Assembly: GCA_009692115.1 (NCBI GenBank)
Contig: SHZU01000009.1
Location: forward strand, 1-64,000
Length of the DNA: 64,000 bases
Direction: 5' to 3'
Source of the DNA: Gemmatimonadota bacterium
GTDB taxonomy: Bacteria > Gemmatimonadota > Gemmatimonadetes > Gemmatimonadales > GWC2-71-9
The notes below the pieces were generated by a model. The model was not told the origin of the DNA. It saw only the letters and a list, made by a program, of their open reading frames with translations, and ran no database searches. Shown in pieces: positions 6,917 through 63,524 of the stretch (its first letter is position 1; every line of letters starts with the position of its first letter). Position numbers and translations under genes: made by a program.

Positions 6917-7312
6917 ATGAGCATGACAGACCCTGTGGCGGATATGCTCGCCCGCATCCGCAATGCGGGTGCCGCTGGGCATCGCCGAGTGGAAGTCCCC
7001 GCATCACGGCTCAAGGCCGAGGTGGCGCGGATTCTCCACAGCAACCACTACATCGCGGATTTCAAGTTGGTCGAGGATGGTCCTCGCGGCGTCATTCGAA
7101 TCACCCTGCGCTATCATAACGAGCGCCCGGTGATCCGAGAGATGAAGCGAATGTCCACGCCCGGCCTGCGCCGCTACGTCAAGAGCCGTGAGATTCCCCG
7201 GATCAAGAACGGGCTCGGTATGGCGATCGTCTCAACCCCCAGGGGGTTGATGAGCGACCGTGATGCCAGAGCCGCGAACTTGGGCGGTGAACTCCTCGCG
7301 GTCGTCTGGTAG
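6917..7312 (+). CDS. rpsH: 30S ribosomal protein S8
   Basis: A 131-residue S8 starting MSMTDPVADMLARIRNA and ending with the STPRGLMSDRDAR signature before GGELLAVVW. S8 organises the central domain of 16S rRNA and is the spc-operon repressor in E. coli; no copy of its mRNA target could be judged here. Confidence 0.97.
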   Translation: MSMTDPVADMLARIRNAGAAGHRRVEVPASRLKAEVARILHSNHYIADFKLVEDGPRGVIRITLRYHNERPVIREMKRMSTPGLRRYVKSREIPRIKNGLGMAIVSTPRGLMSDRDARAANLGGELLAVVW

Positions 7313-59500: not shown

Positions 59501-60937
59501 CTACACCGTTTCGATGCGGAGGAGGTTGGTGGTGCCCGCCAGGTCGAACGGCACGCCGGCGGTCACGACGAACCGGTCGCCGGGCCAGGCCAGGCCCTTC
59601 TTGACGATGATCTCTCGGGTCACGGCCAGCATGGCTTCGTAGTCGGGGCGGCGTTCGACGACCGCCGGAATGACGCCCCAGATCAGGGCCAGCCGGCGGT
59701 AGGTATCGGCTTCGGGGGTCACGGCCAGGATCGGCGTCAACGGCCGGTACGACGCGATGGTCCGGGCCGTGAAGCCGCTGCTCGTGAGGCAGACGATCAG
59801 CGGGACCTTGAGCAGCTCGGCCGCGGCGCAGACCGCCACGGCGATGGCGTCTTCGGTTCGGGCGGTCACGTGGGGCTGGTTGAGCTGAGCGATCGATGCT
59901 TGCCAGACGGAGGCATGGTCGTCGCCGTCCTGCCGGTGCGACTCGACCTCGCGGGCAATTTGGTCCATGGCCAAGACGGCTTCGAGCGGATAACTGCCGA
60001 CGGCGGTCTCGGCGGAGAGCATGACCGCGTCGGTGCCGTCGAGAATGGCGTTGGCCACGTCGGAAACTTCGGCCCGGGTGGGCCGCGGGGCCTTGATCAT
60101 CGACTCGAGCATTTGGGTGGCGGTGATCACGGGCTTGCCGTGCCGGTTGGCCTCCCGGATCAGTTTCTTCTGGACCAGCGGGACCTGTTCGAACGGGAGC
60201 TCGACGCCGAGATCGCCCCGGGCCACCATAATGCCGTCAGCGGCGTCGAGAATGGCGGTCAGGTGCTGGAGCGCGGTGTCCTTCTCGATTTTGGCGATCA
60301 GTTTGACGTGCTTCGGCACCAGGCGACGGAGGCCTTCGATATCCTGGGGGCGGCGGACGAAACTCATGCCGAGGTAATCGGCGCCGAGCTCAGTGGCGTG
60401 GATCGCATCCTCGCGATCTTTGTCCGTCAGCGCCGGCGCCGACACTTCGACGCCCGGAAGGTTCATGCCCTTGTTCGATTTGAGCATGCCGCCGTACCGC
60501 ACCGAGGCGTGGACTTTGTCGCCGATGACACTGGTGACATCGAGGGCGAGCAGGCCGTCATCGAGGAGGATCCGGGTTCCGGACCGGACGTCGGCGGCCA
60601 ACTCGCGGTAGGTCGTCGGAATCTCGTTCGGGGCCGCGACGTCTTCGGGCGCGAAGACCACCGATTGCCCGAAGGTCAGTTGAATCGGCTCCGCGAGGTC
60701 GCCGATCCGAATGCGGGGACCTTGAAGGTCGACCAAGATGGCCGACGCCTTGTCTCGCTGGCGCTGGATTTCTTTGAGATCGGCAATCCACCGACCGCGG
60801 ATCTCCGGGGTGCCGTGGGATGAATTCACCCGGACGACATCGACCCCGGTATCGAGCATGGCGCGCATTTGGTCCGGCTGTTCCCAGGCGGGTCCCAGGG
60901 TGGCGACGATCTTGGTTCGACGGCTTTCTCTCGGCAT
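59501..60937 (-). CDS. pyk: Pyruvate kinase
   Basis: The start is taken at ATG 60937 (478 residues, MPRESRRTKIVATLGP); the longer frame to 61006 only reads into a heptad repeat. Visible are VDVVRVNSSHGTPE, LIAKIEKDTALQHL (catalytic Lys), DGIMVARGDLGVELP and KPVITATQMLESMIKAPRPTRAEVSDVANA-type sequence. It makes ATP and pyruvate from PEP. It is the first gene of a reverse-strand unit pyk-MBL-pgi, divergent from the aldolase gene at 61.4 kb. Confidence 0.96.
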   Translation of the reverse strand: MPRESRRTKIVATLGPAWEQPDQMRAMLDTGVDVVRVNSSHGTPEIRGRWIADLKEIQRQRDKASAILVDLQGPRIRIGDLAEPIQLTFGQSVVFAPEDVAAPNEIPTTYRELAADVRSGTRILLDDGLLALDVTSVIGDKVHASVRYGGMLKSNKGMNLPGVEVSAPALTDKDREDAIHATELGADYLGMSFVRRPQDIEGLRRLVPKHVKLIAKIEKDTALQHLTAILDAADGIMVARGDLGVELPFEQVPLVQKKLIREANRHGKPVITATQMLESMIKAPRPTRAEVSDVANAILDGTDAVMLSAETAVGSYPLEAVLAMDQIAREVESHRQDGDDHASVWQASIAQLNQPHVTARTEDAIAVAVCAAAELLKVPLIVCLTSSGFTARTIASYRPLTPILAVTPEADTYRRLALIWGVIPAVVERRPDYEAMLAVTREIIVKKGLAWPGDRFVVTAGVPFDLAGTTNLLRIETV

Positions 60938-60941
60938 TGAT

Positions 60942-60970
60942 CTCGGCACTCGGCGCTCGGCGCTCGGCTG
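60942..60970 (+). repeat. Heptad tandem repeat copy h, just upstream of pyk
   Basis: Four units (CTCGGCA, CTCGGCG, CTCGGCG, CTCGGCT) begin 5 bp before the pyk ATG, in the position where its ribosome binding site should lie. Confidence 0.8.
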
Positions 60971-61453
60971 TGGTGGAGGGCTCGTCGGTCGAGATGTGGA
61001 AACCACAGATCGACCAGTGTGTTGATTGTAAGCGCTTATATCATAATGACATAAGCTTTCGAATCAAACTGGCTATCCACAAAGTGTGGCGGTCGATTTT
61101 GGGCCGATTGAGAGGGATAATATCCCTGTACAGTTATGTGGAATTTCCTGGTTCTCCACATCGGGGTTTTTCGCGGGTTCGATCGGGTGAGGTTCAAAGT
61201 GTTCGCTGGTAACGGGATCGGGCCGGTCGGGGCAATCCACAGAATTGGGTTTCTTTTGACCGGCGCTCCACAATCCATGCACATAACGACGTTATGTGGA
61301 CAACCGAGCGGGGCTTGACTTTTTTTCGGCTCTTGCAATGGTCCCTGACCGTTGCGTGACGATGGGTTCGGCCCCGGTCGGCCGGGTCGGCCTTACCTGG
61401 CTCGTTTCGGCAGGCTAAATTGTTGATCAGGCAACTACTTACGGATTCTCGGC
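60971..61453. other. AT-rich divergent intergenic region with DnaA-box-like sites
   Basis: This 483-bp stretch between pyk and the aldolase gene is much lower in GC than the rest. Near-consensus DnaA boxes with one mismatch to TTATCCACA occur at 61073-61081 (CTATCCACA), 61152-61160 (TTCTCCACA) and 61295-61303 reverse (TTGTCCACA), with weaker ones near 60994, 61233 and 61266. GTTATGTGGA occurs twice (61133, 61291), the second in an 8-3-8 palindrome at 61280-61298. An AT-rich run lies at 61021-61070. No gene is supported here. Confidence 0.5.
61393..61421 (+). promoter_or_regulatory. Candidate promoter of the aldolase gene
   Basis: TTACCT at 61393-61398 and TAAATT at 61416-61421 are 17 bp apart, 33 bp before the ATG at 61454. 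The CTAAATT -10 matches the pattern seen before other transcription units here. Confidence 0.45.
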
Positions 61454-62872
61454 ATGACCCTCGAACAGCGGCAGCAGGTGGCGGCAGACTACGGACCGGC
61501 GGTCCGGGTAACGGCGATCGGTGTGACGGTGACGGATCCCGCCGTGTTGCGGTCGTCGGCGACCGACCAAGTCGTGTGGTTGGCGGTGTTTGGGACCCCC
61601 GCGGAACAGGAAGCGGCTCGCTGGCTGCTCTGGGAGATCGGCCAGGCGGTTGGAGTGATGCCGGCATCGATTCAGGATCTCTATACCGCTCGGGGCCGGG
61701 GCGAGTGCGGTGGGTTTACCGTCCCGGCCATCAACGTGCGGATGATGGCGTACGATACGGCCCGGGCGGTGTTCCGCGCCGCGATCAAAGCCAATGGCGG
61801 CGCCATTCTGCTCGAGATTGCCCGATCGGAGATCGCCTACACCGAGCAGCGGCCGGCGGAGTATGTCGCGGTGATGATCGGCGCGGCGCTTCGGGAGGGC
61901 TACCGGCTCCCGATCTTCATCCAAGGCGACCACTGCCAGGTCAACGCCAAGAAATATCAATCCGATCCGGAGGGCGAGGTCGGCGAGGTCAAGAAGTTGA
62001 TTGCCGAGGAAGTCGGCGCCGGCTTCTTTAACATCGACGTCGACACCTCGACGCTGGTCGATCTGTCCCGCCCGACGCTCGACGAACAACAGCGCGACAA
62101 CTACCAGCGGGCGGTCGAGATCACGGCGTTCATTCGCGGGCTCGAGCCGAAGGGCGTGACGGTCTCGATCGGGGCGGAAATCGGCGAAGTCGGGCATAAG
62201 AACAGCACGGTGGAAGAGCTCCATGCGTTCATGCAGGGGTACAACCGGGCATTGGCCTCCCGGGGCAAGGGGTTGACCGGCATCAGTAAGATCTCGGTGC
62301 AAACGGGGACGTCGCACGGCGGGGTGGTGTTACCGGACGGCTCGATGGCCGACGTGAAGCTCGACTTGGCCGCCCTGGAGGCCCTCTCGACCGCGGCCCG
62401 GCAGTACGGGATGGCGGGGGCGGTGCAGCACGGCGCTAGCACGTTGCCGCAGGGCGCCTTCGGGAATTTTCCGCGGATCGAAACCGCCGAGATCCACTTG
62501 GCCACCAACTTCCAAAGCATGGTCTTCGATCATCCCGCGCTGCCGGGTGACCTTCGGCAGTTGGCCTACGGCTGGCTCGACCAGCATGCCACCAGCGAGA
62601 AGAAACCGGACGATACGCCCGAGCAGTTCTACTATCGGGCCCGGAAGCGGGCGATCGGGCCGTTCAAGAAGGAGTGCTGGTCGCTGCCCGAGACGGTCCG
62701 CTCGGCGATTGCGGCCGACCTGGAGAAAATGTTCAGCTTCCTGTTTACGCAACTTGGGGTGACCGGGACGGCTGATGTGGTTCGGAAGTACGTCCAGCCG
62801 GTTCGGTTGGGCCATGGCGACTTGACCAAACCGGCCGTCCGGGCGGTTGATGACGCCGACGCGGGGGAATGA
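61454..62872 (+). CDS. Class II fructose-bisphosphate aldolase family protein
   Basis: A 472-residue zinc-dependent aldolase-fold enzyme. The N-terminal 80 residues are an extra domain; the barrel starts at GGFTVPAINVRMMAYD. Metal and substrate segments are LPIFIQGDHCQV, NIDVDTSTLVDL, VSIGAEIGEVGHKN, VQTGTSHGGVV and MAGAVQHGASTLPQ. It is longer and more divergent than the common Fba, and so may prefer a related sugar bisphosphate; with pyk and pgi next door, a glycolytic role is likely. A promoter candidate lies 33 bp upstream. Confidence 0.85.
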   Translation: MTLEQRQQVAADYGPAVRVTAIGVTVTDPAVLRSSATDQVVWLAVFGTPAEQEAARWLLWEIGQAVGVMPASIQDLYTARGRGECGGFTVPAINVRMMAYDTARAVFRAAIKANGGAILLEIARSEIAYTEQRPAEYVAVMIGAALREGYRLPIFIQGDHCQVNAKKYQSDPEGEVGEVKKLIAEEVGAGFFNIDVDTSTLVDLSRPTLDEQQRDNYQRAVEITAFIRGLEPKGVTVSIGAEIGEVGHKNSTVEELHAFMQGYNRALASRGKGLTGISKISVQTGTSHGGVVLPDGSMADVKLDLAALEALSTAARQYGMAGAVQHGASTLPQGAFGNFPRIETAEIHLATNFQSMVFDHPALPGDLRQLAYGWLDQHATSEKKPDDTPEQFYYRARKRAIGPFKKECWSLPETVRSAIAADLEKMFSFLFTQLGVTGTADVVRKYVQPVRLGHGDLTKPAVRAVDDADAGE

Positions 62873-63496: not shown

Positions 63497-63524
63497 CGCC
63501 GAGTGCCGAGCGCCGAGTGCCGAG
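63497..63524 (-). repeat. Heptad tandem repeat copy k, right flank of the S23-like gene
   Basis: Four reverse-orientation units (GCCGAGT, GCCGAGC, GCCGAGT, GCCGAG) preceded by CCTATCCCCACCCC lie 65 bp before the S23-like start and end 14 bp before the dnaX ATG. Confidence 0.8.

Follow-up and report, generated by a model that had tools for sequence, protein, structure and literature searches.

The DNA under study, a stretch of 64,000 nucleotides (the window) from the 3.12-Mb genome G000, contains a gap between a pyruvate kinase gene (pyk) and a class II fructose-bisphosphate aldolase gene (fba), in which DnaA-like boxes are crowded together. The original prediction proposed that this gap was either a replication origin or a DnaA-controlled site, with another repressor as an alternative. 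It was asked whether the cluster is real, where the origin of this chromosome lies and what an array of boxes might do beside pyk. The off-origin DnaA-box control sites described in the available portions of the literature belong to E. coli and B. subtilis, and the present array comes from a lineage related to Gemmatimonadota. Its architecture can be defined with base-pair precision, and it adjoins the pyruvate kinase gene. If DnaA binds there, the array would offer a small cis-acting target for testing a link between carbon metabolism and initiation.

The box cluster in the pyk/fba gap

The genes flanking the gap were found to diverge, as predicted, and a dnaX-like frame starts at 63503, about 2 kb off. 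Beyond pyk, an MBL-fold gene and then pgi follow. The closest named relatives of the fba aldolase were Gemmatimonadota metagenome-assembled genomes. The GC content of the gap was 54% versus 65.5% for the 64-kb window.

The canonical DnaA box is TTATCCACA. Three boxes with one mismatch to it, announced in the original prediction, were recovered (61073, 61152 and 61295), as were weaker boxes with two mismatches (60995, 61233 and 61421), the 8-3-8 palindrome and the two copies of GTTATGTGGA (61133-61142 and 61291-61300). Of the four boxes in the 64-kb window that differ from TTATCCACA at no more than one position, three lay within the gap and the remaining one at 7032. The TCCACA core was present in seven copies in the gap out of 16 in the window, and four of the seven (60995, 61137, 61233 and 61264) had not been listed before. 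The features are collected in Table 1.

When the gap was subjected to 5000 dinucleotide shuffles, the TCCACA core occurred 0.25 times on average and three times at most, with seven or more copies reached in 0/5000. The Poisson probability of seven cores at the window's own rate was 2e-12. A similar box density in many AT-rich gaps had been named as an outcome that would speak against the prediction. Nothing similar was observed: each of 157 other overlapping 514-bp stretches with at most 56% GC, taken from contig C9 and from 186 kb of contig C5, contained no TCCACA core or a single one, and the density of the pyk/fba gap was exceptional among them. The gap was also the densest box cluster in the 360 kb examined of the 3.12-Mb genome. 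The DnaA-box cluster in the gap is real, and with its seven cores the gap possesses one of the features by which an oriC is recognized.

Table 1. Coordinates of the features in the window and of the dnaA-dnaN spacer in the same genome.
Feature	Position	Strand	Remark
pyk, pyruvate kinase	59501..60937	-	PF00224, PF02887; start codon at 60937
Divergent pyk/fba gap with DnaA-box array	60938..61453	.	516 bp, 54% GC
DnaA-like box GTTTCCACA, pyk-proximal	60995..61003	-	in likely pyk leader or promoter
Two overlapping predicted pyk promoters, TTGATT-16-TATGAT and ATGTCA-16-TACAAT	61025..61067	-	consensus matches only
DnaA box CTATCCACA	61073..61081	+	one mismatch; immediately upstream of predicted pyk -35
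Conserved array core (model R1)	61127..61310	+	one match in G000, E 3.6e-30 (window in training set)
Box A1, AATTCCACA	61137..61145	-	A1-B2 spacing in arrays
Box A2, TTCTCCACA	61152..61160	+	one mismatch; A1-A2 core interval 18 bp
Weak box CAATCCACA, A-B interval	61233..61241	+	in relatives often TCAACA
Box B1, CGCTCCACA	61264..61272	+	A2-B1 core interval 112 bp
Palindrome 8-3-8, CACATAAC-GAC-GTTATGTG	61280..61298	.	in core alignment common to window and L006 only
Box B2, TTGTCCACA	61295..61303	-	one mismatch; B1-B2 core interval 28 bp
fba, class II fructose-bisphosphate aldolase	61454..62872	+	PF01116
dnaA-dnaN spacer, AT-rich run and CTA-like triplets	G000:C5:75457-75688 (L002:9457-9688)		likely oriC

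Position of the replication origin

The genome of the window gave one DnaA-ATPase match, on contig C5. The N-terminal and helix-turn-helix domains of DnaA were present in this protein as well, and its gene adjoins dnaN, with yidC on the other side. The proposed check by GC skew was carried out on 360 kb of the 3.12-Mb genome, and the minimum was located away from the gap: on C5 (186 kb examined) the cumulative skew was lowest at 75,973, inside dnaA. On C9, the contig of the window, the cumulative skew kept climbing from the left end as far as 132.5 kb, the skew was positive on both sides of the gap, and the minus-to-plus switch expected of an oriC was absent at 61 kb. In the relative G010, contig C8 was sampled at 20 stretches: the skew was mostly negative before about 650 kb, positive at 660-740 kb and mixed farther out, with dnaA at 672 kb. 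The skew was about zero on the array contig of that genome (C6) and on G028:C7, and these two contigs were hence uninformative on the origin.

A separate feature of C9 was recorded at G000:C9:110000-154138, where the skew drops from positive to about zero and the cumulative maximum is reached at 132.5 kb. This fall possibly marks the direction of the terminus.

The dnaA-dnaN spacer was compared in 13 genomes of the family and two of a second family. A run of CTA-like triplets followed by AT-rich sequence was found in 15/15 of them, the run being imperfect in G011. The DnaA-trio pattern TCTACNACTACTAC had a single exact copy in G000, at C5:75,530, within the dnaA-dnaN spacer, 430 bp from the skew minimum. 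A DnaA-trio layout matching these spacers is described in the available part of PMC8235120, according to which some origins have no trios. Five trio strings were looked for in the pyk/fba gap and none was found; an AT-rich stretch was present there, but not the unwinding element.

Based on the skew minimum at dnaA within the 360 kb examined, the absence of a switch on C9 and the trio in the dnaA-dnaN spacer, an origin at the gap was set aside, and the gap is probably not the oriC. The assignment of oriC to the dnaA-dnaN spacer is well supported, and the likely origin of the lineage is placed with it. The opposite assignment, with the gap as the oriC or as a second, active origin and not the dnaA locus, could draw on the density, order and conservation of the boxes in an AT-rich gap, on the few canonical boxes of the G000 dnaA region (only TGATCCACA and TTTTCCACA) and on a skew that increases on the right-hand side of the gap, from 0.019 to 0.084 per 10 kb. 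It is nevertheless highly improbable, since the skew does not change sign at the gap, the sampled skew of G010 flips close to dnaA, the trio-like run recurs in every spacer compared and the array is absent from many relatives.

The probable DnaA box of the lineage

Upstream of dnaA, TTTTCCACA was located directly 3' of TTGAC in 12 of 13 family genomes, the exception being G011. TTGAC is a likely -35 element, and TTTTCCACA was interpreted as an autoregulatory DnaA box. Owing to this recurrence TTTTCCACA was taken as the DnaA box of the lineage. The same site was the most frequent one in the 21 arrays compared (25 of 108 cores), and TTTTCCACA and TTATCCACA were the two commonest forms. The TT prefix that turns a core into TTNTCCACA was carried by 44/108 array cores versus 8/251 cores from background contigs (p = 8e-19, inflated by the relatedness of the sequences), and by only two of the seven cores of the window.

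The boxes might instead belong to another DNA-binding protein, for example a regulator of glycolysis with a motif resembling the DnaA box. Such an owner would suit the 64 of 108 array cores without the TT prefix and the glycolytic neighbour genes. Against it stand the leading array site, which is also the box upstream of dnaA, and the rank of TTTTCCACA and TTATCCACA among the array forms, and it was judged improbable.

Conservation and internal geometry

A sequence-only model of the array core (R1) was built from seven sequences, its training set including at least G000 and G119 (G119:C3, identical to L007). At E<1e-3 the model matched 14 of 61 family genomes, at one place in each. Ten further family genomes gave weak matches only (E 0.04 to 0.7) and were left out of the count. 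Outside the family, R1 had no match in 13 genomes of the order and class, a weak result as the search held no known positive. A relationship to plasmids was also considered and rejected, positions 60900-61500 having no match in the plasmid collection.

For the comparison of 21 arrays, G119 and G138 were used in place of their duplicate contigs L007 and L056, and G161 was read via L019. The sequence L008, which shares its boxes with G163, shows four cores ahead of pyk and no R1 match and was kept outside the 21. L022, a contig-end piece only, was left out. Counted as raw boxes, the same-strand boxes A1 and B2 were 158 bp apart in 13 arrays and 157 bp apart in five; one of the two boxes was missing in the arrays of G119, G129 and G086. 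At 10.5 bp per helical turn, the spacing of 157-158 bp corresponds to about 15 turns. The inner intervals of the window recurred as well: 18 bp (A1-A2) in 9/21 arrays, 112 bp (A2-B1) in 7/21 and 28 bp (B1-B2) in 12/21. Since R1 favours its own spacing, this conservation is partly biased. A core near the position of the box at 60995 was present in most of the 21 arrays. In 13 genomes with adjacent pyk, the distance from A1 to the pyk start (set by homology) ranged from 205 to 386 bp. The array geometry is fixed inside and loose outside. The arrangement of boxes expected to be conserved in an off-origin control site is seen in 18 of 21 arrays, at 157 or 158 bp, within one clade only.

Two further candidates were not retained. 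Box pairs detected by exact pattern in G158, G127, G017 and G011 were not considered homologues, because they had at most four cores per 500 bp and no R1 match. The palindrome was dismissed as a conserved unit; in the seven-row core alignment it was common to the window and L006 only.

Gene neighbourhood and distribution among relatives

In G152, the array, pyk, the MBL-fold gene, pgi and fba follow in this order and all genes point in the same direction. In the window, fba diverges from pyk, the MBL-fold gene and pgi, and the array lies in between. Comparing the two orders, that of the window appears to have resulted from an inversion of the segment array-pyk-MBL-pgi. On both sides of the apparent inversion the array adjoins the 5' end of pyk or is separated from it by a single gene. 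G086 and G119 have an amidohydrolase gene interposed between array and pyk (the link in G119 spans two contigs), and in G129 the array is near an ispG (GcpE) gene, with pyk on another contig. An association of the array with fba was set aside, as pyk was the steadier neighbour. The gene names tlpA, peroxiredoxin, rpmH and rnpA are tentative.

A pyk tree was made from 42 genomes, 39 of the family and three of the second family, in which L008 was labelled as array-bearing. All 16 array-labelled genomes fell into one clade of 23 (support 100/98). Two of the other seven members had two TT-prefixed boxes, and five had none. With unlabelled rows left out, the array label required three changes on the tree; a single gain plus two losses could explain them. 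The array is dispensable on an evolutionary time scale, given its absence from five of the 23 genomes of its own clade and from the 13 searched outside the family. In three closed genomes without the array (G127, G017 and G037), the distance between dnaA and pyk amounts to roughly 0.28-0.32 of the chromosome.

In a neighbouring group of 16 genomes, the support of which (92/80) is not strong, TTTTCCACA occurs within 105 bp of pyk in five. These five array-less neighbours have it at -45, -45, -53, -57 and -103 of pyk, as an inverted pair in three.

Such findings bear on a second function, a divergent promoter at which DnaA, through its ATP form or its level, would repress or activate pyk, and fba where adjacent. 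Glycolytic expression would then follow the replication cycle, and titration of DnaA would be incidental. The array keeps to the 5' side of pyk whichever the gene order, and array-less neighbours have boxes close to pyk; both observations suit transcriptional control at least as well as control of initiation, and for these two reasons this function was kept under consideration. Further, a predicted pyk -35 is directly flanked by a one-mismatch box, another box is 63 bp before the start codon, and TTTTCCACA occurs in a similar setting in the dnaA promoter. Beside the box at 61073 two pyk promoters were predicted versus a shuffle mean of 0.3, though as consensus matches only. It fits poorly that the array-pyk interval ranges over 180 bp when the inner spacing is fixed, that another gene intervenes in G086 and G119, and that seven cores over 300 bp exceed the needs of a simple promoter switch. 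A promoter as the main function is possible, but on the unlikely side.

Proposed function of the array

The array carries multiple DnaA boxes on C9, away from the oriC assigned to C5. Its inner geometry is fixed, its distance to neighbours is variable, it occurs once per genome and it is located off the origin; hence it was read as an off-origin array comparable to datA, DARS or the DnaA-box clusters (DBCs), rather than an oriC, that would tune initiation and may also act on pyk/fba. The probability of this reading was estimated at roughly 0.55. Of the functions originally offered for the gap, a DnaA-bound control site is favoured by the box composition, the conservation and the fixed spacing, and a replication origin is disfavoured by the skew and the trio.

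It was proposed that DnaA would bind boxes of two strengths, the stronger being of the TTTTCCACA/TTATCCACA type, which are kept in a fixed helical phase, and that the bound DnaA would form one compact nucleoprotein complex. Such a complex would reduce or alter the supply of DnaA competent for initiation, either through titration or through a different nucleotide state of the protein, and would thereby tune initiation at the dnaA-dnaN origin. Being located in the 5' region of pyk, the array may also act on transcription of pyk or fba. DnaA binding and all these effects on initiation or transcription are predictions drawn from the sequence.

A further proposal joins the two functions into a dedicated site that couples replication to central carbon metabolism, in which DnaA occupancy would set the expression of the pyk operon, and of fba in genomes where it diverges, and the array would buffer DnaA. 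If true, glycolysis and initiation timing would regulate each other in this clade. The proposal is doubtful. Pyruvate kinase was reported to control replication in B. subtilis, where, in the available text of PMC9009071, one domain of PykA inhibits initiation and another speeds forks. By analogy, this report makes a link between the array and metabolism plausible, though it is not evidence in the present lineage.

Relation to known DnaA-box systems

Off-origin DnaA-box sites that control initiation are known, as stated in the portions available of PMC5295017 and PMC4585315. Like datA, DARS1 and DARS2 of E. coli, as these sources present them in part, the array is an off-origin non-coding site with several DnaA boxes in a constrained arrangement and is conserved in relatives. 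Unlike them, it is found in a different phylum and gene neighbourhood, and the likeness is one of position and box arrangement. The B. subtilis DBCs are clusters outside the origin as well; removal of six of them led to early initiation, and the same source, in the part available, also gives these clusters no large role in initiation (PMC5295017). They number several per chromosome, whereas the array has one core per genome at E<1e-3 and a spacing conserved to within 1 bp.

DnaA-autoregulated promoters, such as that of dnaA itself, resemble the array in having boxes beside a predicted promoter, the dnaA of the lineage having TTTTCCACA after TTGAC; the array differs by its seven cores over about 300 bp and its variable gene distance. 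With a bacterial oriC of the DnaA-trio kind it shares several ordered DnaA boxes and an AT-rich gap, but it has neither trio nor skew switch and is not located at dnaA. An earlier description of a pyk-side array was not found in the open-licence literature searched. The kind of site is already known; its place beside pyk, its lineage and the spacing kept to 1 bp are new.

Other DnaA boxes and DnaA-like proteins

The perfect box TTATCCACA had one copy in the 3.12-Mb genome of the window, at C2:53891-53899 inside a frame. The same pattern read backwards had 10 copies. From this difference the perfect TTATCCACA looks avoided in G000.

An inverted TTTTCCACA pair with a core spacing of 26 bp was observed at L102:9054-9091 (G158:C1), not near pyk. 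It lies near the 3' end of a frame that we take to resemble pyruvate phosphate dikinase. A pair with the same spacing stands before pyk in G002 and G074.

Further DnaA-ATPase matches were recorded in many genomes of the phylum, three per genome being common. One of the proteins, encoded at L206:1865-3817 (G020:C4), is 650 aa long and has two tandem DnaA ATPase domains and no DnaA helix-turn-helix match. With one DnaA-ATPase match in all, G000 is without this extra tandem-ATPase DnaA-like protein.
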